Assembly (NCBI GenBank): GCA_031292555.1
Contig: JARLGV010000131.1
Span: 1 to 64,000, forward strand
DNA: 64,000 nt
Direction: 5' to 3'
From: Fimbriimonas sp.
GTDB lineage: Bacteria; Armatimonadota; Fimbriimonadia; Fimbriimonadales; Fimbriimonadaceae
Every line of letters begins with the position of its first letter. Positions within the stretch are counted from its first letter, which is position 1. The notes under the pieces were generated by a model. It was not told where the DNA came from. It ran no database searches and saw only the letters and a program-made list of their open reading frames with translations. Both the position numbers and the translations under genes were made by a program. Shown in pieces: positions 13,096 to 59,710 of the stretch.

Positions 13096-13100
13096 GAGAC

Positions 13101-14048: not shown

Positions 14049-14251
14049 AGACGATCCTCGTAATCCTTGCATGCGCCACGAGCCTTGCCGTCATAGGCTG
14101 TGGATCGGGCGACAACCAAAACTCGACCACCGAATCGAGGTTGAGGAAGGAGCTTTCTGCTCCTCCCAGCCTGAAAGGAGCGATGGGTGGCGGCGGTCCA
14201 AAGGCCGCCGGAACGCACAAACCGATGCAGCCTCTTGCGGGCGGACAGTAG
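14045..14251 (+). CDS. Small lipoprotein coupled to the pseudopilin
   Basis: A 68-residue protein: MKTILVILACATSLAVIGC is a lipoprotein signal with lipobox VIGC (Cys19). A polar, Gly/Pro-rich tail of about 50 residues follows (GAMGGGGPKAAGTHKPMQPL). The start overlaps the pseudopilin stop by 4 bp, which implies translational coupling. I recognise no family. Its position matches that of the 60-residue membrane protein at 52972-53154 in the second regulator-pseudopilin module. Confidence 0.7.
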   Translation: MKTILVILACATSLAVIGCGSGDNQNSTTESRLRKELSAPPSLKGAMGGGGPKAAGTHKPMQPLAGGQ

Positions 14252-30391: not shown

Positions 30392-31318
30392 TTATTGTTT
30401 CGGGGCGGTTGGACGGGCAACTTCCGTCCTAGATGTTCGAATCTTGGCTTGGCGGGGCCTAACCGTCACCTTTGCTGCCGCCCATATCTTTTCGCACTTG
30501 GTGGTTCGAGCCCTTTGCGTGAACACGTCGTAGCCTTGTTCTTCGATCTTGTCTAGAATCTTGGCGTAGAGAGTGCGAGCGAGAAGCACGGGACGACGAA
30601 TCTGGCTTGGAAGGCTGTCGATTCCTCGATCGGACTCGCAATACAGATCCCGTGCCCGGGCTATCTCGTATCTCATTAACTTCTTGAAGGCAGGAGTGCA
30701 GCACTTCTGAGCAATCCCCAGTTCATCTACGCCGAAGCGCTCCATATCCTCTTGAGGCAGGTAGATTCGGCCACGGAGATAATCCTCGCCGATGTCGCGC
30801 AGGAAGTTCGTGAGTTGCATCGCCTCCCCTAGCGCTTTCGCTGATTCGACAATCTCCTCGTCGCACGTGACTCCCATTGCCGAACACATTAGGATTCCGA
30901 CTGCGCTCGCGCTGCCTCGCATGTAATGCCTCAACTCGTTGAAAGAGGCGTAGCGACGACGATCGATGTCCATGAGCATCGCATCCAAGAAGCAGTGGGC
31001 CTCGCGGATTGGCATATCGCATTCGCGGAACGCATCGCAAAAAACACGCAAGACTGGGTGGTTTGGGCATTTTCCAGCGACGCCGGCAACCATCTCTTTG
31101 CGCCATGTTTCAATAAGATTTCGCTGCTGGCACGGTTCGATGCCATCCGGGTTATCAACCCACTCATCGGCTATCCTCACAAACGCATAGAGTCCATGAA
31201 CCCGCCATCGGATGGAGGCTGGAAATCGACGGGTTGAATAGTAGTAGGTCGTGCCGTGCGCCTTGTGGATCTTCCGGCATAGCTCGATGTCTTGCGGTGA
31301 CGAGTAATGGTCTTTCAT
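30392..31318 (-). CDS. crtB: Phytoene/squalene synthase-family enzyme, probable phytoene synthase
   Basis: A 308-residue prenyl synthase that condenses two GGPP (or FPP) head to head. Its first Asp-rich motif is DEWVDNP and the second is DIGEDYLRGRIYLP. YYYSTRRFPASIRWRVHGLYAF is the entry block of the family (only part is needed to recognise it). ATG 31318 is chosen because it overlaps the acyltransferase stop by ATGA, like the other junctions of this operon; an in-frame ATG at 31345 lies further upstream. No GGPP synthase is present in the window. C30 versus C40 product cannot be settled by eye. Confidence 0.85.
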   Translation of the reverse strand: MKDHYSSPQDIELCRKIHKAHGTTYYYSTRRFPASIRWRVHGLYAFVRIADEWVDNPDGIEPCQQRNLIETWRKEMVAGVAGKCPNHPVLRVFCDAFRECDMPIREAHCFLDAMLMDIDRRRYASFNELRHYMRGSASAVGILMCSAMGVTCDEEIVESAKALGEAMQLTNFLRDIGEDYLRGRIYLPQEDMERFGVDELGIAQKCCTPAFKKLMRYEIARARDLYCESDRGIDSLPSQIRRPVLLARTLYAKILDKIEEQGYDVFTQRARTTKCEKIWAAAKVTVRPRQAKIRTSRTEVARPTAPKQ

Positions 31319-31983
31319 CCGGTCGGAAGTCTCCTCATGTTCCATCGCTCGTTCACGTCCGGCGTGCCGTCGGCTAGCACGTCGAACGGTTCGTCGCGTG
31401 CGATCTCAGCGCGCAAATCGACTAGCTGCCTGGTCAGCCTGTCCTGGCAATCAAGCAACCCCCCGAACGAGTGTTTCGAGCCAGTCGAGATCCACGCCTC
31501 GGGGCGTTCATGTATGGACAACTCGTATCGAATTGCGACTGGAACAAGTTCGACGCCCGGTACGTGCCTGGCCATCGTCTCAAGCACCCTCCCAAATGGC
31601 AGCAAGTCTGGCGGTCGATGAAGTTGTTGCTCGGGGAAGATCACGAGCGACCGACCGTGATCGTTCATGAGCCGGATCGTCTTGCGGATCGTGCTAGCCC
31701 GGCCCAGAATGTCTCCTTTGCTAAATCGCAGACCGCCAACCATGGCGAACAAGGGAAATGTGTCGAACTCCTCGATCCAGTCGACGCAGTTCAACCCCAG
31801 TCGCATGACGAGGTGAAACATGAGATAGCCGTCCATCCAGCCGTGATGGTTGGCGTACAGGATTGTCGGCGAGGTAAGCAGCTGCTCTCGCTTGCGCCAA
31901 TAGACTCGGCGAAAACGCGTACGCACCGATCGGCGAATCATGCCGCCGACAAGGAACCCGAGTACTCCTGACTGCTGACTCAT
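31315..31983 (-). CDS. PlsC-family acyltransferase of the carotenoid operon
   Basis: A 222-residue lysophosphatidate-acyltransferase-like protein. The catalytic motif is NHHGWMD (HxxxxD form). Block II lies near FSKGDILGRASTIRK, and FPEQ stands in place of the usual FPEG. An N-terminal hydrophobic part suggests membrane association. It sits between the desaturase and crtB with 4-bp overlaps at both ends. In carotenoid clusters such enzymes esterify the sugar of a carotenoid glycoside with a fatty acid, which is the likely role here; phospholipid synthesis is the alternative. Confidence 0.75.
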   Translation of the reverse strand: MSQQSGVLGFLVGGMIRRSVRTRFRRVYWRKREQLLTSPTILYANHHGWMDGYLMFHLVMRLGLNCVDWIEEFDTFPLFAMVGGLRFSKGDILGRASTIRKTIRLMNDHGRSLVIFPEQQLHRPPDLLPFGRVLETMARHVPGVELVPVAIRYELSIHERPEAWISTGSKHSFGGLLDCQDRLTRQLVDLRAEIARDEPFDVLADGTPDVNERWNMRRLPTG

Positions 31984-43667: not shown

Positions 43668-44693
43668 TCAGGGCTGATGCTCCTGCGCGTAGGATGCCAT
43701 GGCACGGATGTTCTCCGGCGGGGTAAACGGGGAGACTTCGCAGCCGCTGCCGACGATGAACTTGGGACCTACTTTTGCGTGGCACTTGGCCACTGCTTGA
43801 GACACCGAATCGGGAGTGCCGTGGATCAACTCCGTGACGGTGGACACATTTCCGCTGATGACCTGCTGAGGGGAGAGCTTTCGGCGCGCGTCGGTTAGGT
43901 CAACGGGGAAGTCGAGCTCGACGATGTCGGTGGGCAATTGGGCCATCAGATGAAGGAGCGGATTGGTGTCGCCGCACATGTGGACGCGGGTCAACACTTC
44001 GGGGAACCGGGACTTGATGCTCCGGAGCACTCGTATTTGCCTGGGGAGAACGAACCGTTCGTACAGGGCCGGCCCGATGAGGCTGGCGGCCGCATCGCTC
44101 ATGCCGATCGTGTCGGCTCCAGCCTCAACCTGCGCCGGCGCATAGGCGATCGCCACTTCACTCGTGAAGTCCAGAAGGTCCTCGACGAACTTCGGGTCGT
44201 CGAAGAAGTCCGTCATGATCCGATTCAATCCCCGCAGTTCTTGGGCAAGCGCCAACGGTCCCTCAACCCACCCGACGATCGACAGATGGTTCCCGGCGGT
44301 TAGGCGCATCCGTTCAATGGCCCGAACCCGATCGTGCATCCGGCCCCCCGGCTCAACCCCCGGGACTCGAAACCCGATGAGATCTTCAGGGTTGGCAAGA
44401 GCGGCATGCTCCTCATCGATGACCGGTCCTTGGTCCTCCAGCCAAACGACCGAGCCCTCGCCGGCGATATCGACTACCTCCCGGGCGGGATCCGAGCAGG
44501 TCAGCAAGACGTCAACGCCGAAGTCCTCAGCGAATTTGAGCTGGGCGTCTGCCATGACGAGACCGTCCCGGGTGTAGTCGATAAACGAAATGCCAAAGTG
44601 CCTTGCCGCCATCATCATCACCATCGGCTGGGCCGAAAGGTGGTCGACCTCATTCCCCCGGCAGAGCCGGTGGATGCGCTCACGCGGCGTCAT
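43668..44693 (-). CDS. Uroporphyrinogen decarboxylase-like protein (methyltransferase type)
   Basis: A 341-residue protein of the UroD superfamily, more like MtaA/CmuA-type cobalamin methyltransferases than haem UroD. Zinc-ligand candidates are His and Cys in RVHMCGDTN and the Cys in VGSGCEVSPFTPPENI. True UroD substrate arginines near the N-terminus are not evident. It is the last gene of a five-gene overlapping operon for glycan breakdown; its start ATG 44693 overlaps the previous stop by 4 bp. UroD-like proteins recur in sugar loci of Planctomycetota and Armatimonadota with no known reaction; demethylation of methylated sugars is one possibility. Confidence 0.75.
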   Translation of the reverse strand: MTPRERIHRLCRGNEVDHLSAQPMVMMMAARHFGISFIDYTRDGLVMADAQLKFAEDFGVDVLLTCSDPAREVVDIAGEGSVVWLEDQGPVIDEEHAALANPEDLIGFRVPGVEPGGRMHDRVRAIERMRLTAGNHLSIVGWVEGPLALAQELRGLNRIMTDFFDDPKFVEDLLDFTSEVAIAYAPAQVEAGADTIGMSDAAASLIGPALYERFVLPRQIRVLRSIKSRFPEVLTRVHMCGDTNPLLHLMAQLPTDIVELDFPVDLTDARRKLSPQQVISGNVSTVTELIHGTPDSVSQAVAKCHAKVGPKFIVGSGCEVSPFTPPENIRAMASYAQEHQP

Positions 44694-46864
44694 TGCGGAT
44701 TCCTTCCTCCTTGTGAGGTCTGGAGGTTGGGCTTATCCGATTTGCTCCCAGGCGAACTAGCCAGGAGGCAGGCCCGGTGAGCTCCGAGGCTGATTCGAGT
44801 GACGTCGTGGGCAACTGCCATCTTGCCAGGCATTCCTATCGTCGAATCGACTGCAGTCGTAGGAGTAGAGAGCGTTCCGGACACGCAGAATTGGGAGCTT
44901 CCCGTAACTCCGGTCTCGAGGTTGGCAAGCAAGATCGTGCGTTCGCCTGAAGCATAGCGCCAAGACAGGAAGCAGATGGGTCGCGTCCAGTCTTCGTTTT
45001 CCCAGCGAATGGCGTCCGTACCCCAACCGCGTTCACCAATTGCAGTTGCCACCGCGAGGTACGTCTGAGGGCTCTGGATCGACTGGTTTGTCATGTGAAG
45101 AATGAAAGGCGTCCCCCACTCAGGGGTCTCCCATACCCAGCACGACTGACCGACGGCCTTAGCGAATATCGGCCCGTCAAGATTCGATATTAAGGGACGG
45201 ATCCCATCGGAGTCGGCAAGGGTCCGCCTTCGCTGATTAACAAGCAGACCCGATGTCCCGATCCTGCATGCGAGATCCTGCTCGACAATTGCAGCCGAAG
45301 GCAGTGATGCGAGACGAGGTTCGGATTCGATCGCGATTCCCAATGCGTCACGGAGTTTCTCGTCGATTCGGGCGGCCTCGCCGATCAAAAGGAGGGGCTT
45401 TCCCGCCGAGACTTCGTGGCGAAGAAAGTTCGTCTCATCGGAGGTCAGCTTCGAAGCGAGCGGGCAGATGTAGCCGTCCGCCGTTACGGACGTGAGCCAC
45501 TTTGCGCGCGTGATCGACAGGATCGGCGCTCCGAACTTTGCGAGCATCGCCGCCCAGTCGTCGATTTCTTCGCCCCTGCTTTGGGCCGCGGGCTCGGCAA
45601 GCGACGCCTCCATCGCTTTGCGCGAATAAACGATACAAGGGCCGTCGGGAATCGGTTCTCGTTCAATGTCGACCGCTGCGGCGCCCAACGTCTCGCGAAG
45701 GAAAGTCACCGTGTCTTCGGGAAGGAGGTTCTCTCGGCGGTTCATCCATGCGATGTAGCATCCAGCCGATCGGGCGACTCGTCCGCCAGGAAGAAGGACG
45801 GAAGCATGGCTATAGGCCCAGATCTCCCATGCGACTTTGCTCGGGTACTGATGGATGCTGTCCCACGGTTCCCATGCGTCGAAGGTCTCTACAAGAAAGA
45901 GATGCTTGCAGGGCGTGTCCGCCAGCATCGCCTGATGAACGAGGGCGTTCATGAGTTGAAACGTGAAGCCCATCGAATGGGCGGGCCAGTAGTCTCCCCA
46001 AGCGGAGGCCCACGTTTGGGTGATCCACAGATCCAGGTGACCGGATCGGGCCACTCGTTCCAGGTCGAAACCATGTGAGCGCCATTCCTCGATCGAGGAG
46101 GTGCCGGAGCTGTACCCGATCATGATCAGGTTCGGGTCATGACTCTTGACGCGCGCCAACATGGCAATGATTGCCTCGTTCCAAGCCTCCCTCGATGCGG
46201 GCGCCATGTATCGAGCCTTTCGGTTGCCTCGAATGTAGGCCCTCGTGAAGATATGGTCGCGCAAGACGACGGCGTCGAACCCAACCGTTCGGGTCACTGC
46301 GGCGAGCTTGTCGGCGAAGTACTCGCCAAAGGTCGGCCGTTGCTGGCGGCAGATGGTTTCCCCATTGGGAACCTTGACCGGCGCGCCGAAGAAGAAGATG
46401 TCGAACCGGTCGTCGTACACTTCCGGATGATCGAAGAACCAGCGCCCCTCAATGTCGTATCGTGCTTTGTCCTCCTGCTCCTCGGTGCGACCGCTCCAGC
46501 CCTCGCACGCGCTCTCGGGGAACGACTGCGTTTCGATGCCCATCAGAAGCAGAGCGACGTGGAAGTCAGGCATTCCTCGGCGAACCGCCTCTTGCTTGAT
46601 CTCGGTGACGAGTTCGGCAAGACGGCGATACGTCCATTCTTCGTAGGTTGGCGATTGGCAGCAGGGAATCACCTCATCCGGATCGCCGTTCCAGTAAAGG
46701 ACCATGTCGAAGAGCCATCCGACACAGAGCGAAAGCCCCGTTCGCGTGGCGGGCGACCGCCCCCAGAGTGGCAGTAGCCTTTCGAAAAGCTGGTGAGCCC
46801 TGACCTGCGGCGGTTCTCCTTGGAACCAATAGAGATCGATTTCAAGCCAACATTCCTTGTTCAT
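44690..46864 (-). CDS. Unknown protein, probable sugar-active TIM barrel
   Basis: A 724-residue protein without a signal peptide. The N-terminal two-thirds read like a (beta/alpha)8 barrel with many aromatic residues (LSLCVGWLFDMVLYWNGDPD, CCQSPTYEEWTYRRLAEL, WITQTWASAWGDYW, FLVETFDAWEPWDS). The C-terminal part from about 400 looks like a Rossmann/GATase-like domain of the kind seen in GH42. I do not recognise a named family. A glycosidase or an inactive carbohydrate-binding relative is likely from its context. ATG 46864 overlaps the preceding stop by ATGA. Confidence 0.55.
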   Translation of the reverse strand: MNKECWLEIDLYWFQGEPPQVRAHQLFERLLPLWGRSPATRTGLSLCVGWLFDMVLYWNGDPDEVIPCCQSPTYEEWTYRRLAELVTEIKQEAVRRGMPDFHVALLLMGIETQSFPESACEGWSGRTEEQEDKARYDIEGRWFFDHPEVYDDRFDIFFFGAPVKVPNGETICRQQRPTFGEYFADKLAAVTRTVGFDAVVLRDHIFTRAYIRGNRKARYMAPASREAWNEAIIAMLARVKSHDPNLIMIGYSSGTSSIEEWRSHGFDLERVARSGHLDLWITQTWASAWGDYWPAHSMGFTFQLMNALVHQAMLADTPCKHLFLVETFDAWEPWDSIHQYPSKVAWEIWAYSHASVLLPGGRVARSAGCYIAWMNRRENLLPEDTVTFLRETLGAAAVDIEREPIPDGPCIVYSRKAMEASLAEPAAQSRGEEIDDWAAMLAKFGAPILSITRAKWLTSVTADGYICPLASKLTSDETNFLRHEVSAGKPLLLIGEAARIDEKLRDALGIAIESEPRLASLPSAAIVEQDLACRIGTSGLLVNQRRRTLADSDGIRPLISNLDGPIFAKAVGQSCWVWETPEWGTPFILHMTNQSIQSPQTYLAVATAIGERGWGTDAIRWENEDWTRPICFLSWRYASGERTILLANLETGVTGSSQFCVSGTLSTPTTAVDSTIGMPGKMAVAHDVTRISLGAHRACLLASSPGSKSDKPNLQTSQGGRNPQ

Positions 46865-48912
46865 CGGGTTACTCCTGAGGCTTCGCCACACCGCCCGATA
46901 GCCGAGTGCCACTGATCGGACGCAGCGCCTCCAAAGATCAAGCGGAATCGAAATCTCGCATCGTCAGAGCACCACATCGGGAAATTCGTGCCCCACACGA
47001 TGTTGTACAAATTGAAGTGGATGCCCTTGCGAAGCGGAGGCCTACGGTCGTTGAAATCCAATAACGACGGCTCGCCAGGAGCAACCAGGGGAGTATCTAC
47101 CGTCTCCGCCAGGAACTCGCCATGAGCATCCCAGTAACGCACGTATCGATTCACGGCATGCAGCTTTCGATTTCCCTTCCGCACGACATCAAGGGGCGAG
47201 ACCGCGCGGCCCATCTTGTCGAGCGTCCAGCCGTCGGCACGGACCTCGCGCGGCGCCAGGCTCATCCAGATCGCCTCCGGTAGTCGCGATGCAGGCTTAT
47301 CGAGCCATTGGGAATCGAGATGAAGGATGGGGGCGTCGGTTGCCGCGTCCACTCGGAGCGTCATCCGGCGCGGGCACCCGTGGGGTGAATCGGCGGGCAT
47401 GTACATCTCGGCGATGAAGCTTGTTCCGTTTTCGTGTCGCAGAAGTCGACTCAAGACCGGCCGCCAGATTCCGCTTTGCCGTTGGGCCGACTCCATCCCG
47501 GGCTTGGTCAGGTCCTTGAGAGCCCAGTCCGGCTGATTGGTAGCGTACTGGCGGAAGTATCGGGCGTAGTCTTCGGCTGAGAACACCTGGTAGCCCAATT
47601 GGGCAAGCCGATGATTCTGGTCGGACCAGACGCGTCCGTTGGCATGCTCCCTTAGGTAGGCAATGGAGCCGTCCACACCAAAAGCGAAGGTTAGGTGAGC
47701 GGTTTGGATTCGCGCCAGGGCATCCGTGACCTCCGTGTACCCAGTCAAATCCAGGTTGTGGGGTTCGCCCGCAAGCAGCCGCTCCAGAGCCTGAACCGCC
47801 AAATCCGATGTCCCCAATGCGCCAATGGCCTCGTCTAGATAGGCACGCTGCTCCTCCCAGGACGACTCGAAATGCCGGCACCGATCTTGTTGGCGCAACG
47901 CCTCGAATGCCTTCGGTTCGTACGCCTCGAAGTCGCCCAAGTGAGTCTTTTCATCCATGCCCCAGGTGTGTTCGGCAACTGCGAGGAGGGGGAGGCTGAA
48001 TGATCGGTGCAAACGGCTGTTCAATGCCATGGCGCCGCACGCGAGCCATTCCTGTCTCAGTCGAGTCAGTTCTCTGAAGCGGCGGACCTTAGTCGGATCG
48101 GTTCCTACACCATGGATCCATGTGTCGCCGATCTCGGACGTGACCACCGGCAGCGACGATCTCAACTGCACCAGGCGTCTGGCGACTCCATCCAACGTCG
48201 AGGCATGGATCGTGGCTTTCGGGAAGCTCAAAGCAAGGCGACGATAGACCTTTCCGACTTCGGGCATCGAGATGGGGCCTTGATTGTCCCCGGTGAAGCT
48301 GACGGCGACCGCCGTCTGACCGTCCGGCAGGATCATGACGTCGCCGTAATCGTGCTGAACCATGACGATGAGCTCGGCGCCGTCTGGCTCCTGCCATCGG
48401 AACAGCGGCGGTACCTTCGCCGGAGGACACGCGGGGTTGACTCCTATGTGAAAGAATTCGACGCCGGCTTCCGCCATCAATGGGATCATCGAGCGTGTGT
48501 GGCCGGGAACGTCCGTCATCTTCGCCCCTGTCGTCTTGAATCCGAAACGCGCGTCGAGATCCTGGGAGAGGCTCAGGCCGAACCGAAACAACGATGGATC
48601 CATCAACTCGGTGTGAGTCGTAAACGGCAGAGCGTGCCACGAGAAATCGCCGATGGCGATTGCCCGCTCCATCGCGGCTCGGCCGGCGGCATCCGCCGTT
48701 TCAAGGAACTGATGCACCAGCCAGGATCCTGTCGTCCAAACGAATCGCTCGGCGGGATTCACCATGCGGGACTGCTCGGCGAGTCGTAACGCGTTTGGAA
48801 TGTAGTCGTCCACGTACCGTCGCACGACGTTCTTCGCCAGATCGGTGAATCCAAGATCCAGGTGGGTCTTGAAGATCACATGTACTTCTTTGACTTCGGT
48901 GTTCGATTTCAT
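46861..48912 (-). CDS. GH38-like protein (DUF5054)
   Basis: A 683-residue cytoplasmic protein. The N-terminus VHVIFKTHLDLGFTDLA has the His-x-Asp metal pair of the GH38 alpha-mannosidase/GH57 fold. TDVPGHTRSMIPLM holds a candidate catalytic Asp and GVEFFHIGVNPACPP follows, as in the DUF5054 family. Large beta-sandwich domains follow the barrel. It probably hydrolyses an alpha-linked sugar, but no member's substrate is known to me. 4-bp overlaps on both sides (48909-48912 and 46861-46864) show strict coupling to its neighbours. Confidence 0.7.
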   Translation of the reverse strand: MKSNTEVKEVHVIFKTHLDLGFTDLAKNVVRRYVDDYIPNALRLAEQSRMVNPAERFVWTTGSWLVHQFLETADAAGRAAMERAIAIGDFSWHALPFTTHTELMDPSLFRFGLSLSQDLDARFGFKTTGAKMTDVPGHTRSMIPLMAEAGVEFFHIGVNPACPPAKVPPLFRWQEPDGAELIVMVQHDYGDVMILPDGQTAVAVSFTGDNQGPISMPEVGKVYRRLALSFPKATIHASTLDGVARRLVQLRSSLPVVTSEIGDTWIHGVGTDPTKVRRFRELTRLRQEWLACGAMALNSRLHRSFSLPLLAVAEHTWGMDEKTHLGDFEAYEPKAFEALRQQDRCRHFESSWEEQRAYLDEAIGALGTSDLAVQALERLLAGEPHNLDLTGYTEVTDALARIQTAHLTFAFGVDGSIAYLREHANGRVWSDQNHRLAQLGYQVFSAEDYARYFRQYATNQPDWALKDLTKPGMESAQRQSGIWRPVLSRLLRHENGTSFIAEMYMPADSPHGCPRRMTLRVDAATDAPILHLDSQWLDKPASRLPEAIWMSLAPREVRADGWTLDKMGRAVSPLDVVRKGNRKLHAVNRYVRYWDAHGEFLAETVDTPLVAPGEPSLLDFNDRRPPLRKGIHFNLYNIVWGTNFPMWCSDDARFRFRLIFGGAASDQWHSAIGRCGEASGVTR

Positions 48913-51224
48913 TTCGTGGTTCCCGCGTTGAGGAGAATCCGCTTCCGGAGAGCATATAGGGTCGGCGGGTCAGCCTCCGTGGCGCTTGGGTTGATGGCGT
49001 GCTGTTCCATCAGTGGGAAGAGGCCGCCGTGTGACCGATAGATCGCAGCAGTCCAATGTGGGGGCGATCCGGCGTTTCTCCACGCTAAGCAAAGCGAATC
49101 CCTGCCGCTCAACTGCTCATCCAACGCACAGATCAAGAAGTCGGTCATGTTCTGGGGAGTGGAGACGAGGGGGGAGGAGGCGTCAACGCCATCAATCTTG
49201 GTAGTGACCGCCAGTCCAGTTTTGGATCTCACCACAACCGCAAGCCGGTCCGTGCTCCGAATGCCGTTGGCGAGGATTCGGGCGTCAGACCTCATGCCCT
49301 CGATTCCGACGTAGGTTTTCGCGTGAAGCGAGGCGGCATTGATAGTGCTCGCGATGAGCGTGCGGTTTTGGTCGTCCGACACCGCTTCATACCGAAAGGA
49401 AGTCCGGTCGGCGGAAGCCGAAGTCATCTTGTACACGCGGAGACGAATCGAATCCCCGTTCGCTGGTCGCCGGGCAACGACGATCTCGTCGGGATCGCCT
49501 TGTCCGACGATTTCCGGAATCAGGTTGGCCGTCGTGAGGCCGACAAACGTTCCGTCCGCCGTGTCGCGAGCGATCGATAGATCCTCGCCGAGCCGTCCGC
49601 AGTTCTGGTTATAGAACGTGACCCTGCGGACCCCGTCCCTTTCCGGTTCGATAGTCAGGAACTCGTCGACCCCGTCGCCATCGATCTCGATGCGATGGAT
49701 CGCCTGCGTTGGCGACCGGAACAGCCAATCTCCCAGCCGGTTCTCGCTTTGGTCAAGCCAACGAATTCCGTAGGAGTAGAAATCGAACCATGCGTGGACG
49801 GGCTTAGTCCTTTGACCCAACCAACTGAACCCCAGCGTCGTTTGAGCATAGTCGATCGGCGGATCGGAGACGTCGTTCTCGTGGAACCGTTGTTGATTGC
49901 GATCGAACACGACGTCCAGGCGGTCGGGGGCGTTGGCCGTTCCGCCCGGGTCGAGTAACGCCTGCCGGAGTCTCTTGAGGGCCAAACGCTCGGAGTGATC
50001 GGGAGCTTGCTCCCAGGCGCCGGAGAAGTCCGGCTTTCCGTGCATCGGCTCGTTGAAGAAAAAGGAACCGGGCTCGAACTGCAGAATCGACGCGCCTTGC
50101 CGAAGGCCATCCTTGACGTAGGCGGCCATGATCTCCTCAGGGCATGCGAGCTCACCGGATAGATAGTAGTGGCCAGTCAGCGTATAGGTCAGTTCGTGCC
50201 AGAACCAGCTTTGAATGGACATGCCCCACTGAGAATTCGGAGTGGTCTTGAGCGGGAACTGAGTGTACGGCATGTCGAAAAAAAGCCAACTCGGGGTCGG
50301 CCGCGTGACGCCGGGCTTGCTGGGACCGATCTTCGCCGTCAGGAACTCGAGGTTCGGCGTGTAGTGATAGTTGTTGTTCGCCCAGCTGAAGCATAGGAGG
50401 CTGCCAAGCTTCTGCTCCGCCTCGTTCTGGAGTGTTCGGTAGGGCTCGGCCTCGAAATAGGGACGGTGATTGGGATCGTAGACGTAATGGGGCTCGTCGG
50501 TGACCGGCGGGGATTTCATGAGCCAATTGGAGTCGCTCCAAAGGAGACGCAATCGCTTCCTTCGGCACAACTCGATGCATCCACGGATCACCTGTTCGTC
50601 CGTGATGAACCCATGCTTCCACGTGGGCTGGGCCCTCCAACCCGCGTCGGAGCCATAGACTTCGTGGAAGCGGATTCCTTTCAGCACATCCGGATAGGCG
50701 TCTGACAACGCGCCGAACGTCTGCATGTCCATCGAGAGGCCCAGGCGCGGATGATCGCTTGGGCCCGCGCCAAGGAGCGGAATGGGCCTCTTGTCAAGCT
50801 CGCCGCTTTGCTCAGTGGCGACGCCCGATGAGTACGCCTCCAGGAAGACGTCGATATGCGGTTCGCCCGCAGATCTCTTCCCAAAAAAATCGAGGAGGCG
50901 CCGCAAGGCAGGCTGGACAGAGTCGAGCCCCCCATTCGGGGCCGCCGGGGAGTAGGCCTGGCATGGGTAGACGAGAACTGCGACGTCGTACTTAACGGCA
51001 AGGGGAGCCAACCCGGTTCGGATTCGGCCCAGACACTCATCGAGGCCCTTCGGATCGCTTCGAAACGCCCCGAGAAGACCGTCGGAGAACCCTTCGTCGA
51101 TCTCAAAGAGCAGGAGCGGCTTCGCAGGCTTGGCGGCAAACCCTACTGGGCTGGCATTGCCGATACCGACGGTCAGCCAGAGCGCAAACATGGCAGCAAC
51201 CGGTCCCTTCGTCAACGTGTTCAT
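48909..51224 (-). CDS. Exported unknown protein of the glycan operon
   Basis: A 771-residue protein with a signal peptide (AAMFALWLTVGIGNASP). About residues 35-420 look like a TIM-barrel (LLLFEIDEGFSDGLLGAF, IDVFLEAYSSGV, RLRLLWSDSNWLMKSPP, SLLCFSWANNNYHYTPN, ASILQFEPGSFFFNEP). The rest is beta-rich, perhaps a propeller-like or binding part (VDEFLTIEPERDGVRRVTFY). No catalytic pair is certain. It likely acts on, or binds, the glycan outside the inner membrane. ATG 51224 overlaps the upstream stop. Confidence 0.5.
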   Translation of the reverse strand: MNTLTKGPVAAMFALWLTVGIGNASPVGFAAKPAKPLLLFEIDEGFSDGLLGAFRSDPKGLDECLGRIRTGLAPLAVKYDVAVLVYPCQAYSPAAPNGGLDSVQPALRRLLDFFGKRSAGEPHIDVFLEAYSSGVATEQSGELDKRPIPLLGAGPSDHPRLGLSMDMQTFGALSDAYPDVLKGIRFHEVYGSDAGWRAQPTWKHGFITDEQVIRGCIELCRRKRLRLLWSDSNWLMKSPPVTDEPHYVYDPNHRPYFEAEPYRTLQNEAEQKLGSLLCFSWANNNYHYTPNLEFLTAKIGPSKPGVTRPTPSWLFFDMPYTQFPLKTTPNSQWGMSIQSWFWHELTYTLTGHYYLSGELACPEEIMAAYVKDGLRQGASILQFEPGSFFFNEPMHGKPDFSGAWEQAPDHSERLALKRLRQALLDPGGTANAPDRLDVVFDRNQQRFHENDVSDPPIDYAQTTLGFSWLGQRTKPVHAWFDFYSYGIRWLDQSENRLGDWLFRSPTQAIHRIEIDGDGVDEFLTIEPERDGVRRVTFYNQNCGRLGEDLSIARDTADGTFVGLTTANLIPEIVGQGDPDEIVVARRPANGDSIRLRVYKMTSASADRTSFRYEAVSDDQNRTLIASTINAASLHAKTYVGIEGMRSDARILANGIRSTDRLAVVVRSKTGLAVTTKIDGVDASSPLVSTPQNMTDFLICALDEQLSGRDSLCLAWRNAGSPPHWTAAIYRSHGGLFPLMEQHAINPSATEADPPTLYALRKRILLNAGTTK

Positions 51225-52882
51225 CGGACAGTCTCCTCAAACGTCAGGCGGATCACGGCCGGATGGTCTGTCTCGACGACCGTCAGGCCGTTCTGCTCGA
51301 CGACCGTTGCCGGTCCACCGGGCTTCCACGTGTCGCCGTCGAAGCGACCACGCTCTGCGTGAACCTTCGCGATTCCGCCGATGGCAATTCGTCCCTTCGG
51401 CAGCGCCAAGAACAGATCCTTCGGACCGGTACGCACAACGATTCCGGCATCGCTTCCGCTGACTTCGAGCGACAAGGTCCCCAGGTGAAGCGTGAACTTG
51501 CCCGAGCTCCCAGTTCGCGTAGAGGCGCCTTCCCGAACGAACCATCGATCGGCTTCTACGGGTGACTCGTCCGCCTTCCTCGGAACGAAGTTGCCGAAGA
51601 CGTCGGTGCTCAGCCCGGCCCGAATGTCGCGAATGGCGTACCAGCCGACGAGCCGCTCGGTTCCTCTGGCGCGGGCGATCGGGGCCCGAGCCCACTTGAG
51701 GGGATACAGGGCGTCGGCATACCGTTGCTTGGCCACCGGATCGTCGACGACGGTAAACGGGGGATGGCATTCCCAAAGCAGGTTTCCAAGCCCCTGCTGC
51801 CCAATGATCGTGTAGTAGGGCAGTACATCCAGGTTCAGCCGAACCTCGGAGTTCTCAGTAGGGTTCTCGGCAGCTAACGCGATGTTGCGATCCAGCAGCG
51901 AACGCGACAGCCAATTCGGCTCGCGCGGGCTGAGTATCCCGTCGATGCCGACGAATGCCAAGTTGGGGCACCTCGTCAGGAAGATGGGGATCACACGGGG
52001 CGGCCACCATGGGCTGTTCACGTAGAGCGGAATGGGATAGACCCTTGTGATGGAGTCAGTCAGAACGCGCACGTAGTCCGCGAAGCTCTTGAACATGAAC
52101 TCCTCACCGTTCTCATAGGATCCTGACCTCCACTTTGTCATGCAGTTTGTGCACTGGCACCGAATGGCAAGCTCTTCTGCGCTGCCATCGGCCGGACGCT
52201 TGCCGTCCCACTGCTGATAGTAGAACTCGTTGTCCAGTTGCATCATGATCACGGTTCGATGCAGGTCCGTATCTCGAAGGTGCTCCGCCACTCGGGTTAC
52301 CAACCGCCGCTCGCGCTCAAGCGTCATCGGGTCGTTTGGACACATCGGGGGGCCGGCATCGACGTACTTGTATGGGTAGGGAAGCACCATGCGGTGGTAC
52401 TTCTGAGGAGCTTTCAAAATGTAGTCGGGCGTGTAGCCTGGGTAGACGGATGAACCGACGCCTTCGCCGACTTTGCCGCATACGTTCGTGTTGAACAGGT
52501 TCACAACCAGCTTGAGTCCGTTTGACTCGGCCTTTCGAATGAACCAATCGAGAAACTGAAAGTCGTACTTGTCTTCTGTGTTCTCGATCTTGGACCAGGG
52601 AATGCCCACCGAGACTGCGGTGGCATTCATCTCTCGATAGCCCTCAAAGAATTCCGATGCCTTCGCGTCTTGCTTGGTGCTCCGCCAAACGTCGCACTGC
52701 GCCCCGACCAACAAGAACGGCCGGCCATCCACCACTAGAGTCTCGATACCGTTGATTTTTGAAATGCGGGCGACAGGATGCTTGGTTTTAGGCGGATGCG
52801 AGTTCATGGAATTCAACACAATCTGAGAGCCGGCGCTTGCGAGGCGGACGACAAGAAGGACGAAGAAGGCGAAGGCACGCAC
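51221..52882 (-). CDS. Clan GH-A glycoside hydrolase, beta-galactosidase-like
   Basis: A 553-residue protein resembling GH35/GH42. SVGIPWSKIENTEDKYDFQFLD is the usual strand 2-3 region of such enzymes (only the pattern 'W..E...G.YDF' matters). MMQLDNEFYYQQWDG gives the Asn-Glu acid/base, and NLLWECHPPF holds a possible nucleophile Glu. A C-terminal beta domain follows. GTG 52882 gives a good signal peptide (RAFAFFVLLVVRLASAGS); TTG 52897 is equally possible, and ATG 52807 would remove the signal. First of the five overlapping genes, after a strong hairpin. Confidence 0.65.
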   Translation of the reverse strand: MRAFAFFVLLVVRLASAGSQIVLNSMNSHPPKTKHPVARISKINGIETLVVDGRPFLLVGAQCDVWRSTKQDAKASEFFEGYREMNATAVSVGIPWSKIENTEDKYDFQFLDWFIRKAESNGLKLVVNLFNTNVCGKVGEGVGSSVYPGYTPDYILKAPQKYHRMVLPYPYKYVDAGPPMCPNDPMTLERERRLVTRVAEHLRDTDLHRTVIMMQLDNEFYYQQWDGKRPADGSAEELAIRCQCTNCMTKWRSGSYENGEEFMFKSFADYVRVLTDSITRVYPIPLYVNSPWWPPRVIPIFLTRCPNLAFVGIDGILSPREPNWLSRSLLDRNIALAAENPTENSEVRLNLDVLPYYTIIGQQGLGNLLWECHPPFTVVDDPVAKQRYADALYPLKWARAPIARARGTERLVGWYAIRDIRAGLSTDVFGNFVPRKADESPVEADRWFVREGASTRTGSSGKFTLHLGTLSLEVSGSDAGIVVRTGPKDLFLALPKGRIAIGGIAKVHAERGRFDGDTWKPGGPATVVEQNGLTVVETDHPAVIRLTFEETVR

Positions 52883-52925: not shown

Positions 52926-52956
52926 CCCCCTGCCCTGCGGAATGCAGGGCAGGGGG
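52926..52956. other. Perfect 13-bp hairpin between the pseudopilin module and the hydrolase genes
   Basis: CCCCCTGCCCTGC and GCAGGGCAGGGGG pair perfectly around GGAAT. It lies between the small membrane protein gene (ends 52972) and the first hydrolase start (52882). Neither strand has a T-run after the stem, so it is not a standard terminator. It may be a repeat element, or an RNA-stability or processing hairpin that separates expression of the regulator/pseudopilin part from the enzymes. Confidence 0.6.
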
Positions 52957-53173: not shown

Positions 53174-54013
53174 CTAGTACAACTCTGGGTGCTTGTACGG
53201 GTCGACGTTGCAGTCGTCCTGAATCGTCCATTCGCAGGGGAACGTCATGCCCCATTGGCGAGTCGATGCGTGACCATCGAACCACAACAGGTTGTCCATC
53301 TTGCTGAACACGCCGGTGACGCTTGGGTCCTTCGAAGTGCCGCCCTTGCCGGAGAAGGTCTGGGGCATATAGCCTCTGAACATTGCATAGTCGGTGCTAT
53401 AGTCGTCGTACGTCACGAGCGAGATGCCGTTCTCGATGAGGATCATATCCGACGGCTGTTCGACCACCGACTCATTGTCGTGATCCCACCACCGCAGACC
53501 CCAGTGCAGGCCGCCGTCAGCGTTCCATGACCAGCCACCGTACTTGCTGGCAAAGGGCGCGACGATTCCCCACTCTCCGCCCCAGAACTCGCCTGCCGAG
53601 TTCATGTTATAGGACATCTGCGCGGTGTTCGTCTGCCAGTTGATGTTCGCGAAGTTGTCGGCTGGGCACCACCAACTTGGGATTGTCGTCTTATTGATGT
53701 TTCCCGGTGAGAGGAATACCTGGTCGCTCTTGGTGTACGGCATGAGCTTCGTCGGCCAGTATGCATAGTAATCGCCGGCGCATTGCCCGGTCGCTTCGGA
53801 GTGCCACAGGTAGGCCTGGGCCATGTAGGCGTCGTTATCGTTGGAGTACATGAAGTACGCCAAGCCGATCTGTTTGATGTTGCTGAGATCCACCGCCTTC
53901 TTGGCGGCCAATTTCGCCTGTGCGAAGACTGGGAAAAGGATTGCCGCTAGAATCGCAATGATCGCGATTACTACGAGCAGTTCTATAAGAGTAAATCCAG
54001 TACGCTTTGTCAT
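53174..54013 (-). CDS. Type II pseudopilin-like protein, copy 2
   Basis: A 279-residue protein with leader TKRTG, then [18 protein letters not shown] and [17 protein letters not shown], nearly identical to copy 1 over the first 45 residues. The globular part differs strongly and is rich in Trp and Tyr ([20 protein letters not shown]), which could suit sugar binding. The C-terminal WFDGHAST segment matches the DGH block of copy 1. ATG 54013 overlaps the LacI stop by 4 bp. The strong conservation of the helix fits use of a shared prepilin peptidase and assembly machine encoded elsewhere. Confidence 0.85.
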
Positions 54014-55059
54014 GGTGAAGGAGCCTCCTTTGGCTCTGATATCGAGGGGGTTCGCGGTGCGGCCGTGGATCCCCTAATGGCGAGAGTTGTCTTGCAAATA
54101 TGCTGTTGGAGCGGAATCGCCGGATCCGCCATCCGGCGCTTCAGGAATTCCCAGCCCATCGCGCACATCGCTTCGACCGGCTGAACGATCGTGGTGATTG
54201 GGCACTCCAGATACTCCGTGTCCTCGATGCCGTCGCATCCGACGATGGCTACTTGCTCGGGCACCTGTATTCCCAGGTCGCAAAGACCGCGGTAGACACC
54301 GATGGCAGTGTCGTCGTTGTGGCAGAACAAGCCGTCCGGGCATCCGTACTTGGCGATGTATTCGCGAATTCCTTGCCTTGCGCCAGCCCGAGAGGGGCTG
54401 GGAACCACGATGTCTTCCGTGGGCCGTCCGGCAGCCTTCATGCCATCTGCGTAGGATGTCGTTCGGGCGTCCTGAAGGCCCCTGGGCGCTTCTTCGTGAA
54501 CATAGGCGATTCGGCGACATCCTATCCCGAGTAAATGGTCGATCGCGTCCCGCGTGCCTCCGTAAAGGTCGACGCCCACGTAATCGACCTGCTCAAGATG
54601 AAATGCTCCAATACTGATGATAGGCGTGTGAAGGTCTGGATGCCGGTGAAGGAAAGTATCCATGTGCTCCGGATACTCGATCGAGATAATGCCGTCTCCC
54701 GGCCAGAGCCCGGGCGCTTGAGTGCTAATGCTCGTTTCGATATCCGAAATCAGCATCTGAAATCCGCTCGCCTTGATCTGGTCCCGAAGGTGAGTCGTGA
54801 TCATCGCGTAGTAGGGCGAGAGGCTGCCTGCCCACAGTGATACGACTTGAGTCGTTCCAGTGACGAGCGCTCGAGCGGCCCGATTCGGCCGGTATCCCAA
54901 CTGCTTTGCCGCGTCCAAGACCCTTTCGCGGGTGGCCGGGGCGATCACGATATCCTGCCTCCCGTTGAGGACATAGGACACCGTGCAACCAGACACGTTC
55001 GCAAGCGCAGCGACATCATTTCGCGTCGGGCGCTTCAGAACGTTGGGGCTTGTGTCCAT
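54010..55059 (-). CDS. LacI-family transcription regulator
   Basis: A 349-residue repressor. The HTH at about 10-65 ([32 protein letters not shown]) includes the hinge. The effector domain has [34 protein letters not shown] and [15 protein letters not shown]. It should respond to a sugar and control the divergent ABC transporter and its own operon. The 41-bp palindrome 5 bases upstream of its start is the obvious operator. It overlaps the pseudopilin gene by 4 bp, so repressor and pseudopilin are made from the same message. Confidence 0.9.
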
Positions 55060-55063
55060 GTCA

Positions 55064-55104
55064 GTGTTATACTACACGTGTCAGTAACACGTGTAGTATA
55101 ACAC
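55064..55104. promoter_or_regulatory. Large perfect palindrome: operator with outward-facing -10 boxes
   Basis: The arms GTGTTATACTACACGTGT (55064-55081) and its exact reverse complement (55087-55104) flank the spacer CAGTA. Each arm contains ACACGTGT, itself a palindrome (55074-55081 and 55087-55094). Each arm also holds a TATAAC that reads outward: 55097-55102 on the plus strand and 55071-55066 on the minus strand. So one symmetric element can give both the divergent promoters and two LacI-type sites 13 bp apart. This is direct sequence observation; binding by the adjacent LacI protein is inference. Confidence 0.8.
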
Positions 55105-55213: not shown

Positions 55214-57592
55214 ATGAAACTCCTTCCTGCCTTGGTTATCGGGTGGTTGGCAGCGACGGTTCGAGCCGACACGCACCTGGCCGTCTGGGGCGCGCCGCAG
55301 GGGCCTGATTCGATCGCGATCGCCCAAGCGTTCGAGTTGAAGCATCCTCACGTGCGCGTTCGAATGCTCGGCATGGGAGTTGGGCAGATGAACCCGCAGA
55401 AGCTGCTGACCGCGATCGTCGGAGGGTGTCCGCCCGATCTCGTGTACCAAGGGCGCTTCAACATCTGCGACTGGGCAAGTCGAGGGGCCTTCATTGCGCT
55501 CGATGATCTTTTAGCGCGAGACTGGGCTGCCACCGACTGTCCAAGGCGAGAAGATTACTACGATGCTGCCTGGAGCGAGGACGTCTTCGCCGGTCACGTT
55601 TTCGGCGTTCCAACCGAGGCCGACGATCGCGCGCTGTATTGGAATCGCGGGATGTTCCGCCAAAAACGTCATCAGCTTGAGATGGCCGGGCTCGACTGGC
55701 AGCGCGCTCCCCGGACCTGGTCCGAACTACTGCGATACTCGAAAGTTCTGACCGAGAAGGGCAAGTGCCTGGGGTTCATTCCGAACTTCGGAAACGCGTG
55801 GCTCTACTTGTACGCGTTCCAAACCGGCGCGACCTTCCTGTCACCGGACGGTCGCCAATGCACCCTTGCCTCGCCTGAGGCCGCCGAGGCGCTCGACTTC
55901 ATGAGGCAGGGGTACGAAGTCGTGGGCGGCTACTCGTCGGCCAACGTGTTTCAGTCGGGATTCCAGGACGGCGAGAACGACCCGTTCATCGCGGGACGGG
56001 TCGCGATGAAGATCGACGGCGACTGGTCGCTTGCCGGGCTCGCCCGCTATGGCTTGGCCCTCGATTTTGCGGTGGCGCCCCCTCCGACCCCCGATGATCG
56101 ATACGCCAGAACCGGACGGTTTGCAGGCGTTCAGGACCGCTTCGTCACATGGACGGGAGGCTGGTGCTACGCCATGCCGAGGGGCTGCCCACACCGGGAG
56201 CTGGCCTGGCAATTCATGAAGTTCGCCACGAGCTTGGAGGGGAGGCTGATCGGGAATCGAGCCCTCGCGATGGCGGATCGGGCGAAGGGACGCGTCTACA
56301 TTCCGCGCATTCAAGGTCTTAAGGCTGCCAACGAAGTGCTTTACCGGCTTTATCGGCCCGCCGACCCACGGTTCGCCGAAGCGATCAAGGTTCATATCGG
56401 CCTGATGAACGTCTCGCGGGTTCGTCCGCCGACGAAAGTGGGCCAGCTTCTTTGGGACGCTCACGTGCGGGCCACCGAGGAAACGCTTCTGGGCAAGGCG
56501 TCTGCGCTAGCCGCCCTAACTGTGGAACAGCAGACTGTTCAGCGCGAACTGGACCTGCTTAATGGAAGGCATAGGTACCCGGTGGTGTCGATGGCGTGGA
56601 TGGGTGGCATCGCTTTCCTCGCATTCCTTGTCGCGCTTGGCGTGTCGATCGTGTCCTGGCGCAAGGCACGTCTCGGCCGGCTTGCCAGGCACGAAGCGCG
56701 GTGGGGTTACCTCTGCATAGCGCCGTGGGTGATCGGCTTTCTCGTTCTGACCGTCGAGCCGATGCTGGCTTCGCTGTTCTTCAGCTTCACCGACTACGAC
56801 GTACTATCGCCTCCCCGGTGGGTTGGCGCCAGGAACTACCTCGATATGGTCGGGCCGGATCATGGCAACGTGCTCAAGGCGTTCGGCAACGCCGCATATT
56901 TGGCGGGAGTGGGGGTTCCTCTCGGAATCGTATCCGGCCTCGCGGTAGCCCTCCTTTTGAACTCGGGCGTTCGCGGCATCCGGTTTTACAGGCTGGTCTT
57001 CTATCTCCCCGCGATCGTTCCGGTCGCCGCGAGTTCGGTGCTTTGGATCTGGTTGCTGACGCCCGACACCAAGCAAGGGCTCATCAACTCCCTATGGTCA
57101 TCGACGATTGGGACTTGGTTGTCTCTGCCATCCCCGGGATGGCTGACGGCGGAGGCCTGGGCGAAGCCCGCATTGATTCTGATGGGAGTTTGGGGCGCCG
57201 GAAGCGGTATGGTGCTTTGGCTCGCCGGTCTCAAGGGCGTTCCGTCTAGCCTATATGAGGCGGCTGAGATCGACGGGGCGAGCCCCGTGTGTTCGTTTCG
57301 CAACGTCACTCTTCCGATGCTGAGTCCGGTTCTGTTCTTCAACATCGTTATGGGCTTCATCGGGGCGATTCAGGAGTTTGACCGGGTCTATATCATGAGC
57401 CCGGAAGGAACGAACGGCCCGAGCGACTCGCTCTTGGTCCCTGCCAAATACCTGTTCACCAACGCCTTCACCTACTTCAAGATCGGCTACGCCAGTGCTC
57501 TGGCATGGACGATCCTGGCCGTCATCCTCTTGATCACCCTGGTCCAATTCCGTCTCGCCCGGTTTTGGGTCCATGAGGAGACAGGCAAGTGA
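55214..57592 (+). CDS. Sugar ABC transporter: substrate-binding protein fused to MalF-like permease
   Basis: A 792-residue fusion. The signal peptide/anchor is at 1-18 (MKLLPALVIGWLAATVRA). An extracellular solute-binding domain spans about 20-450 (family 1, with VPTEADDRALYWNRGMF and FIAGRVAMKIDGDWSLAG). A linker helix near 460-485 leads to a MalF-type permease at about 495-792, with WGYLCIAPWVIGFLV and the EAA loop EAAEIDGASPVCSFRNVTLP. These parts are normally two proteins. The fusion fixes one binding domain per transporter. Divergent from the LacI gene and behind the palindromic operator. ATG 55214 is chosen because it gives the signal peptide. Confidence 0.85.
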   Translation: MKLLPALVIGWLAATVRADTHLAVWGAPQGPDSIAIAQAFELKHPHVRVRMLGMGVGQMNPQKLLTAIVGGCPPDLVYQGRFNICDWASRGAFIALDDLLARDWAATDCPRREDYYDAAWSEDVFAGHVFGVPTEADDRALYWNRGMFRQKRHQLEMAGLDWQRAPRTWSELLRYSKVLTEKGKCLGFIPNFGNAWLYLYAFQTGATFLSPDGRQCTLASPEAAEALDFMRQGYEVVGGYSSANVFQSGFQDGENDPFIAGRVAMKIDGDWSLAGLARYGLALDFAVAPPPTPDDRYARTGRFAGVQDRFVTWTGGWCYAMPRGCPHRELAWQFMKFATSLEGRLIGNRALAMADRAKGRVYIPRIQGLKAANEVLYRLYRPADPRFAEAIKVHIGLMNVSRVRPPTKVGQLLWDAHVRATEETLLGKASALAALTVEQQTVQRELDLLNGRHRYPVVSMAWMGGIAFLAFLVALGVSIVSWRKARLGRLARHEARWGYLCIAPWVIGFLVLTVEPMLASLFFSFTDYDVLSPPRWVGARNYLDMVGPDHGNVLKAFGNAAYLAGVGVPLGIVSGLAVALLLNSGVRGIRFYRLVFYLPAIVPVAASSVLWIWLLTPDTKQGLINSLWSSTIGTWLSLPSPGWLTAEAWAKPALILMGVWGAGSGMVLWLAGLKGVPSSLYEAAEIDGASPVCSFRNVTLPMLSPVLFFNIVMGFIGAIQEFDRVYIMSPEGTNGPSDSLLVPAKYLFTNAFTYFKIGYASALAWTILAVILLITLVQFRLARFWVHEETGK

Positions 57593-59250
57593 GTTCCAAC
57601 CTGCTGGTTGCCATCGGTACTCTGTCGGCCTGGATTGGCGCCGTCTGCTTGCTGCGCGGTCTCTACCTCGGCCTGAGCCACCGGCCGGGATTCGGGTGGC
57701 CGGCAGGAGTGGGAGGATCTCTCTTTCTTTTGGCGGCCTCGTTGCCGACCTTCGAGGGGAGGTTGGAGGTCCCGTTGATTTGGGTCGTCCTGCCGTTCAC
57801 CGGATGGATGGCGGTGATGTTCGGCTTGCTGGCAGCGGCCTATACCGGAAAAGCGGTGTTGGACTCGAATCCGAAGCTGCTTCTGCGAGCGGGAGTGTCC
57901 CTGGCGGCAGCGATCCTGCTCGTGGCCCTCTATCGCGCGGATCCAGAGAACCGGTTTGTCCTCTTGCGCGGAAGCATTCGTTTGTCCGCCGAGGGGGCGC
58001 TCGCGATCGTGGGGTTTGCCGCCGCCGCCGTGGCGGTCATGGCAAGCGCTGGCCGCCGAGCCCGGGAACGTGGGCGGCTTTGGGCGACCCATGCGACGCT
58101 GTTGGCCGGTTGCGTCGTGTTCGGCATGCCGTTTGCGTGGTTGATGGTGACCAGTTTCAAGGAAGACCGGGACATGGCCAGTCCAAACGGCATCGTCTGG
58201 ATTCCGCGCGTTCAACGAACGGTGCCGTACATGGACCGGAAAGATCCGCTTTTGGAAGGCGAGTTCGAGGGGAACTGGGTCCAAGCCACACTGGCGGGCA
58301 AAGACGCGACCGGGAACTACATCGTCGAGGTGCAGAGGCCCTACAGCTTGCGCGGGGTCTCGTTCACAGGGCGCCCAAGCTCCTTTCGCGTCGTCGAGAA
58401 GGACGCGCCGATGGTCTCCGGGGTTGGGTTCACCGGATTTGTCGTTCGCGAGCTCAGTGACGGCCGGAGGGTGGTCCAATTCCTGTCGCCTCCCGCCGAC
58501 AAGGGAAGTCAGAGAACGTATCTGGCATCCGAGCTGGAGCCGATTCGCGATATCGGTCTGAGGACACAGAACTATACGGAGGCGATGGAGGCGATGCCGC
58601 CGGAGACCCGGCACGGTCTCGTCTATTTGAAGAACACATTGATTCTGGTCGTCATGGGCGTCTTTGGCACGCTGCTCAGTTCGTCGCTGGTGGCGTATGG
58701 CTTTGCTCGCCTCCGGTTTCCCGGTCGGGACCTGATCTTCAAGATCCTGCTCGCCACGATGATGCTGCCCGGGGCAGTGACGCTGCTTCCCCAGTTCCTT
58801 TTGTTCCGATCGCTGGGATGGATCGATTCTCTTCTTCCGCTATGGGTTCCCGCGTTCTTCGCCAGCGCATTCAACGTGTTCCTCATTCGGCAGTTCTTCG
58901 TTCAAATCCCGACCGAGTTGGAGGACGCGGGGAAGATCGACGGCGCAAGCGTTTTAGGCATCTTCTGGCGGATCATGCTCCCCCAGATCAAGCCGGCCCT
59001 GGCTGTCGTCGCGATCTGGACGTTCATGGGCGCCTGGAACAACTTCATGGGACCGCTGATCTACGTGAACAGCCCCGAGAACATGCCGCTCAGCTACGCA
59101 CTGCAGCTATTCCAAACCGAGAAAGGCGGCAACCCGGGGCTGATGATGGCATTCGCCACGCTGACCGTCCTCCCCGTCATCGCCCTCTTCATGTTCACTC
59201 AGAAGTACTTCATCGAAGGCGTAACCCTCTCGGGATTGGGTGGGCGCTAG
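57589..59250 (+). CDS. MalG-like sugar ABC permease with extra N-terminal helices and a large insertion
   Basis: A 553-residue protein, about twice the usual MalG length. Residues 1-150 hold about four extra helices. The MalG fold then begins (PFAWLMVTSFKEDRDM). About 150 extra residues, probably periplasmic and beta-rich, are inserted before NYTEAMEAM. The core continues with YLKNTLILVVMGVFGTLLSS and the EAA loop EDAGKIDGASVLGIFWRIMLP. GTG 57589 overlaps the previous stop (GTGA). No ATPase gene lies nearby, so a shared MsiK-type ATPase encoded elsewhere must energise it. Confidence 0.8.
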   Translation: MSSNLLVAIGTLSAWIGAVCLLRGLYLGLSHRPGFGWPAGVGGSLFLLAASLPTFEGRLEVPLIWVVLPFTGWMAVMFGLLAAAYTGKAVLDSNPKLLLRAGVSLAAAILLVALYRADPENRFVLLRGSIRLSAEGALAIVGFAAAAVAVMASAGRRARERGRLWATHATLLAGCVVFGMPFAWLMVTSFKEDRDMASPNGIVWIPRVQRTVPYMDRKDPLLEGEFEGNWVQATLAGKDATGNYIVEVQRPYSLRGVSFTGRPSSFRVVEKDAPMVSGVGFTGFVVRELSDGRRVVQFLSPPADKGSQRTYLASELEPIRDIGLRTQNYTEAMEAMPPETRHGLVYLKNTLILVVMGVFGTLLSSSLVAYGFARLRFPGRDLIFKILLATMMLPGAVTLLPQFLLFRSLGWIDSLLPLWVPAFFASAFNVFLIRQFFVQIPTELEDAGKIDGASVLGIFWRIMLPQIKPALAVVAIWTFMGAWNNFMGPLIYVNSPENMPLSYALQLFQTEKGGNPGLMMAFATLTVLPVIALFMFTQKYFIEGVTLSGLGGR

Positions 59251-59410: not shown

Positions 59411-59710
59411 ATGCACGTCATAGCTAAACGAACCCTGCGCGAGCATTGGGAAAAGCCGGGTCGAGAGGACTCCCAGGAACCTCTCGAAGCTTGGTATGCC
59501 GAGGCGAAGTCCGCTCTCTGGAGGAATTTCGGCGACATCAAGCAGACGTCGGCGACCGCCAGTGGCGTGGCCAATAACCGCGTGGTGCTTAACATCGGCG
59601 GGAACAAATACCGGCTGATCGTGAAGATCAACTATCCGGGAGGGATCGTTTTCATCCGGTTCGTCGGCACTCACCAGGAATACGATCGAATCGATGCGAG
59701 GAGCATATGA
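59411..59710 (+). CDS. higB: HigB-type toxin (mRNA interferase)
   Basis: A 99-residue RelE-superfamily toxin of the HigB group, which cuts mRNA on the ribosome. Typical blocks are MHVIAKRTLREHWEK near the start, LEAWYAEAKSALWRNFGDIK, NKYRLIVKINYPGGIVFIRF and GTHQEYDRID. The length is normal for the family and the motifs are intact. The stop overlaps the antitoxin start by ATGA (59707-59710). The toxin-first order is characteristic of higBA. Confidence 0.9.
   Translation: MHVIAKRTLREHWEKPGREDSQEPLEAWYAEAKSALWRNFGDIKQTSATASGVANNRVVLNIGGNKYRLIVKINYPGGIVFIRFVGTHQEYDRIDARSI

Follow-up and report, generated by a model that had tools for sequence, protein, structure and literature searches.

The minus-strand cluster at 43668-52882 is likely to be most of a LacI-controlled glycan-utilisation operon, containing two unclassified glycosidases (here called unkA and unkB) and a lineage-specific methyltransferase possibly acting on methylated sugars. 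This reading draws on gene order, co-occurrence across phyla, resemblance of folds, conserved residues of active-site type, an operator-like repeat and a zinc triad, from which we infer the enzyme activities, export, the identity of the sugar, regulation and the role of the methyltransferase. All coordinates refer to the 64-kb stretch of DNA that was analysed (the window), and the features of the locus are collected in Table 1. The cluster consists of five genes, whose reading frames and coordinates were all verified. An earlier sequence-only reading of this DNA had delimited the same five genes correctly but had overlooked the small gene upstream of them, and the transcription unit probably starts at the LacI gene (55059), which would give it eight genes rather than five. 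The start of the first glycosidase gene (GTG at 52882), which has no clear ribosome-binding site, is a guess. Neither Rfam matches nor tRNAs were found in the 64-kb window.

Table 1. Features of the probable glycan-utilisation locus, in order of position in the window.
Feature	Coordinates	Strand	Basis or position
MtaA-like (UroD superfamily) zinc methyltransferase homologue, not HemE	43668-44693	-	closest solved chain and zinc triad
unkB, unclassified GH42/GH164-like three-domain glycosidase-type protein, without signal peptide	44690-46864	-	structure model
DUF5054 protein with GH38-type active site, without signal peptide	46861-48912	-	Pfam
unkA, unclassified, GH98-like barrel and C-terminal beta-rich (propeller-like) domain; apparent signal peptide (by eye)	48909-51224	-	structure model
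GH35/GH42-like clan GH-A glycosidase, apparently secreted, 554 codons	51221-52882	-	Pfam; signal peptide by eye
Perfect 13-bp hairpin, GC-rich, without T-run	52926-52956	-	in the gap from the small gene to the first glycosidase gene
Small single-TM protein, 60 aa	52972-53154	-	between the pseudopilin and glycosidase genes
Pseudopilin-type protein with N_methyl motif	53174-54013	-	Pfam PF07963
LacI-family regulator	54010-55059	-	Pfam LacI and Peripla_BP_3; 4-bp overlap with the pseudopilin gene
Predicted LacI operator, 18-bp inverted repeat, two ACACGTGT cores	55064-55104	.	between lacI and the transporter
Sugar ABC transporter, fusion of solute-binding protein and permease	55214-57592	+	Pfam SBP_bac_1, SBP_bac_8 and BPD_transp_1
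Second ABC permease, 553 aa, long N-terminal extension	57589-59250	+	Pfam BPD_transp_1 at 369-542; NCBIfam UgpE/MalG-like

Glycosidase-type proteins of the cluster

The sequence-only reading had held that the products of unkA and unkB match no family and had proposed structure prediction for both. This remained true of the sequence libraries, as neither protein had a match in Pfam or NCBIfam, but the structure models placed both in known fold groups, unkA with a GH98-like barrel and unkB as a GH42/GH164-like three-domain enzyme.

The model of unkA, built on an alignment of five sequences, is of moderate to weak quality (pLDDT 62.5); with this limit, its barrel aligned with GH98 at a VIA-align Z of 19.1 (rmsd 3.8, 266 residues) compared to 15.8 for the next family, and it appears to resemble GH98 clearly better than the other families. 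Members of GH98 include the endo-beta-1,4-galactosidases Sp3GH98, Sp4GH98 and RgGH98 and the endoxylanase BoGH98. While unkA shares the barrel with this family, it differs from it in having another C-terminal domain, only 14-20% identity to GH98 chains from streptococci and no match by sequence profile: none of five homologues matched Pfam at E values up to 10, and a profile search of solved structures found no GH98 chain. Four residues of active-site type, E129, E188, D231 and E384, are invariant in 14 homologues and are placed at barrel strands or directly behind them. The unkA homologue of Cohnella silvisoli, a protein of 1,781 aa, carries F5/8C, fn3 and three SLH domains and, because of its F5/8C and S-layer anchoring domains, is presumably extracellular.

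The better model of unkB (pLDDT 74.4, pTM 0.82) contains a barrel, a GH42-type trimerisation-like domain and a C-terminal beta domain, the architecture of GH42 and GH164. Foldseek returned E values of 1e-13 to GH42 and 9e-13 to GH164, and the structures aligned with a VIA Z of about 15 over 518-545 residues, a length over which unkB shares all three domains with the GH42 beta-galactosidases and the GH164 beta-mannosidase Bs164. It differs from both families in its low identity (9-13%), in the lack of any profile match (no GH42 match in any of seven homologues against Pfam at E values up to 10, and nothing found by a sequence search of solved structures) and in an Asp in place of Glu after strand 4. 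E326, which follows strand 7 (residues 320-325) and is invariant in 8 homologues, occupies the nucleophile position of GH42 and GH164. D203, which follows strand 4 (residues 198-202), is also invariant, and the acid/base Glu of the two families is absent there. In GH164, the nucleophile is likewise a Glu after strand 7 and the acid/base after strand 4 is Glu160 (PMC7105311), for which reason a parallel between D203 and the GH164 acid/base was dropped.

The other two glycosidase-type genes fall closer to described families. The product of the first gene passed the Pfam cut-offs for both GH42 (PF02449, 34.3 bits for a cut-off of 21) and GH35 (PF01301, 27.5 bits for a cut-off of 27) and scored far under the cut-off of the NCBIfam GH35 model; its orthologues occur in 9 of the 291 genomes of the phylum, at 42-64% identity. 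The third gene codes for a clear member of DUF5054 (PF16477, 189.6 bits, well above the curated Pfam cut-off of 37.6), a group on which a literature search found no paper. This protein shares with GH38 the H-x-D, D and H residues, here H17, D19, D134 and H315, all of them invariant, which in GH38 make up the metal site and the nucleophile; D134 aligns with the aspartate of a GH38 protein from genome G086. It differs from GH38 in its Pfam GH38N score of 16.2 bits, under the cut-off of 25, a cut-off that a DUF5054 homologue from an uncultured member of the Bacillota (G294) exceeds with 39.6 bits.

Recurrence in other genomes and proposed function

Homologues of unkB were found in seven genomes, namely that of the window, G097 and G089 from the same phylum, Cohnella silvisoli, a Sumerlaeota genome (two copies) and two uncultured Bacillota. 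The sequence-only reading had envisaged that homologues might prove to be scattered and never co-occur. On the contrary, unkA is present in all seven genomes with unkB, full-length unkA being found in only 3 of the 291 genomes of the phylum, and a DUF5054 gene lies on the same contig in five of the seven, from Armatimonadota, Sumerlaeota and Bacillota. Since DUF5054 is absent from G097 and G089, and the GH35/42-like gene of G089 is on a separate contig, the gene set appears modular; its members nonetheless look clearly associated. Within or close to the locus there are ABC transporter genes in Cohnella, at both Sumerlaeota loci and in both uncultured Bacillota. The Cohnella locus comprises unkB, transporter genes, the 1,781-aa unkA, a two-component system, DUF5054 and two proteins weakly similar to the GH35/42-like protein. 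In G086, DUF5054, a GH35/42-like gene (50%) and a pseudopilin gene are adjacent, without unkA or unkB. The proposal of a pathway for one glycan is supported for four of the five genes, as the glycosidase-type genes recur across phyla with sugar ABC transporter genes. The UroD-like gene, which encodes the MtaA-like protein, falls outside the conserved set.

Absent from Pfam and NCBIfam, with invariant residues of active-site type and a joint recurrence with their partners in three phyla, the unkA and unkB families make good candidates for glycoside hydrolase families not yet described, and their partner genes and operator offer a direct route to the substrate. Several loci hold further genes of note. 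In Sumerlaeota and Cohnella, genes for proteins of DUF6259 and DUF4978, possibly further glycosidase families, adjoin homologues of unkB or unkA (L014 11127-13220 and L100 1509-5970). At L095 2873-16887, in G294, four unkA homologues and two DUF5054 genes stand side by side, and the same genome has ten unkA match segments on four contigs.

Several elements upstream of the glycosidase genes recur in two other genomes of the phylum. The LacI regulator has orthologues (53-56%) in the same place in G089 and G097, and in both genomes a pseudopilin gene lies beside lacI in the same position. For the small single-TM protein, G097 encodes a 67-aa counterpart in syntenic position whose N-terminus matches (phmmer E 0.0015-0.016); in that genome a similar small gene also follows another pseudopilin gene. 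The inverted repeat lying between the lacI and transporter genes is the probable LacI operator. Paired sites of this type (CTAC[A/G]CGTGTAG) occur just upstream of the orthologous lacI genes in G097 and G089, and the exact 10-mers tested were found only at these sites in 1.49 Mb of sequence. The hairpin downstream of the small gene is a possible mRNA processing or stability element. With known LacI-controlled clusters of sugar ABC transporter and glycosidase genes the locus shares the regulator, the divergent transporter and a combination of apparently exported and cytoplasmic glycosidases; it differs from them by the pseudopilin and single-TM small protein placed between regulator and enzymes and by the fusion of solute-binding protein and permease.

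We thus propose that the GH98-like unkA and the GH35/42-like protein, exported if the signal peptides recognised by eye are functional, would cut a complex polymer beyond the cytoplasmic membrane, and that the resulting oligosaccharides would enter through the divergent ABC transporter (55214-59250). These could then be finished in the cytoplasm by the GH38-type DUF5054 enzyme, by homology a metal-dependent retaining alpha-glycosidase, and by the GH42/GH164-like unkB, by fold a clan-A-type retaining beta-glycosidase. LacI, bound at the palindrome, would keep both arms repressed until it binds an inducing sugar, and the MtaA-like methyltransferase would have been added in this lineage, perhaps handling the methyl groups of methylated sugars. 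Because of the GH35/42-type partners and the F5/8C domains, our first guess is that the polymer is probably a beta-galactoside-containing glycan.

The methyltransferase gene

The closest solved chain to the product of the last gene is MtaA (4ay7, E 4.7e-24; 32% identity over 229 aligned residues), and its residues H238, C240 and C318 align with the H-x-C and C of the MtaA zinc triad. By this identity and this triad it resembles MtaA, the soluble CoM methyltransferases (SCMT) and the MtaA-like proteins (Mlp). Proteins count as Mlp when their identity to a characterised SCMT exceeds 25% (PMC10418091), as the identity to MtaA does here; the NCBIfam score, 163 bits as against 235, is under the cut-offs. 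The haem enzyme HemE was rejected as an assignment, given an equivalog score of 76.7 bits for a cut-off of 302.95 and the presence of the zinc triad. The same genome has 22 URO-D matches altogether, including a far stronger one at C33:31981 (E 3.4e-125).

The zinc-triad family to which the gene belongs occurs in 54 of the 291 genomes of the phylum, with the triad kept in all 23 family rows checked, and of 12 neighbourhoods sampled, 7 have it next to a corrinoid activase gene. In the genome of the window, contig C59 (L032 5363-15333) contains activase, MtaB-like, corrinoid, several UroD-type and homocysteine-methyltransferase-like genes, a content similar to that of published mlp gene clusters (PMC10418091). 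From such clusters the gene in the window differs by its sugar-operon setting, with neither a corrinoid protein nor an activase among the annotated genes neighbouring it. Its nearest homologue is the only copy in G086 (57%), with which it forms a sister pair with full support in the tree. That copy lies in another sugar cluster, along with LacI, a GH29 fucosidase and two carbohydrate-esterase genes, and G086 encodes an MtaB homologue elsewhere in its genome. To judge from this sister copy in a sugar cluster, the sequences suggest a role of the MtaA-like gene with methylated sugars, and its presence in two sugar clusters raises a possible link of glycan use to corrinoid methyl transfer. A literature search for UroD proteins with polysaccharide loci or in Armatimonadetes found no paper.

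The UroD-like gene was also considered as a member of the conserved set and rejected, as the UroD-type genes near the G089, G225 and L013 clusters are distant (23-26% identical to that of the window) and lack a complete HCC triad. Alternatively, the gene may be an unrelated one attached behind the other operon genes, with no part in glycan use, a possibility that we take seriously while regarding it as somewhat doubtful. It has the last position in the operon and no orthologue in the other clusters with unkA and unkB, and the corrinoid cluster on C59 has its own, second copy of the family; against this, it is coupled to unkB by a 4-bp overlap, has a strong ribosome-binding site of its own and groups with full support with a homologue that is likewise in a sugar cluster.

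In a further reading, the operon would demethylate as well as degrade an O-methylated glycan, the MtaA-like enzyme stripping methyl groups from sugars or from released methanol together with the corrinoid protein, MtaB-like protein and activase of C59. The zinc triad, the corrinoid parts encoded in the genome, the family members beside corrinoid activase genes and the setting of the G086 homologue, in a genome that also has an MtaB homologue, are in keeping with such a scheme, which we nevertheless think unlikely: the cluster lacks a corrinoid protein and a methyl-donor methyltransferase, the gene is not conserved alongside the other four, and the type 1 mlp clusters of the literature have been given a role in methyl-sulfur or methyl-selenium metabolism (PMC10418091). 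It is rather improbable that the locus as a whole is an O-methylated-glycan operon whose last gene codes for a corrinoid-dependent methyltransferase for sugar-borne methyls, using corrinoid parts encoded elsewhere. If true, this would add to the two undescribed glycosidase families a way of demethylating sugars that differs from the P450-based one described for 6-O-methyl-galactose.

Gene overlaps and other features of the window

The sequence-only reading had pointed to five consecutive genes joined by ATGA overlaps, and all four junctions (51221-51224, 48909-48912, 46861-46864 and 44690-44693) are indeed present. Six more 4-bp junctions of ATGA type lie elsewhere in the window (17195-17198, 31315-31318, 31980-31983, 54010-54013, 57589-57592 and 59707-59710). 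A simple gene caller based on codon usage, applied to 493 kb of this genome (6.46 Mb), gave 338 adjacent pairs, 71 of them close and on the same strand. Exactly 4 bp of overlap was found in 29 of these 71 (41%), making it the commonest overlap length in this genome by that sample. When junctions were reshuffled, at least one run of four arose with P of about 0.06 in the sample; as the sample covers about 1/13 of the genome, about one such run is expected genome-wide. The run of four ATGA overlaps is therefore no more than chance in this genome and is an ordinary pattern.

Three of the four downstream genes have Shine-Dalgarno-like sites of their own (AAGGAGG before 44693, AGGAG before 46864 and GAGGAG before 51224). 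The corresponding orthologous pairs have 39-121 bp between their two genes in G097, G089 and G086, while other gene pairs in Sumerlaeota and Bacillota show a few 4-bp overlaps. Given the genome-wide frequency of such overlaps, the separate Shine-Dalgarno-like sites and the non-conserved spacing, the overlaps point to an operon and not to fixed stoichiometry. The earlier proposal that uniform overlaps impose fixed protein stoichiometry, which the four successive ATGA junctions had prompted, thus fails on all three counts and is very improbable, all the more as the gene products appear to act in two compartments.

Two further groups of genes were noted on the plus strand of the window. Three paralogues resembling flavin-dependent oxidoreductases or halogenases, with an IIGGGPAGST motif, lie near one another at 211-1944, 3865-5556 and 5604-7295. 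A second regulator and pseudopilin module occupies 11953-16646, with a GntR/periplasmic-binding-type regulator and a pseudopilin, after which comes a TonB-dependent receptor plug protein.
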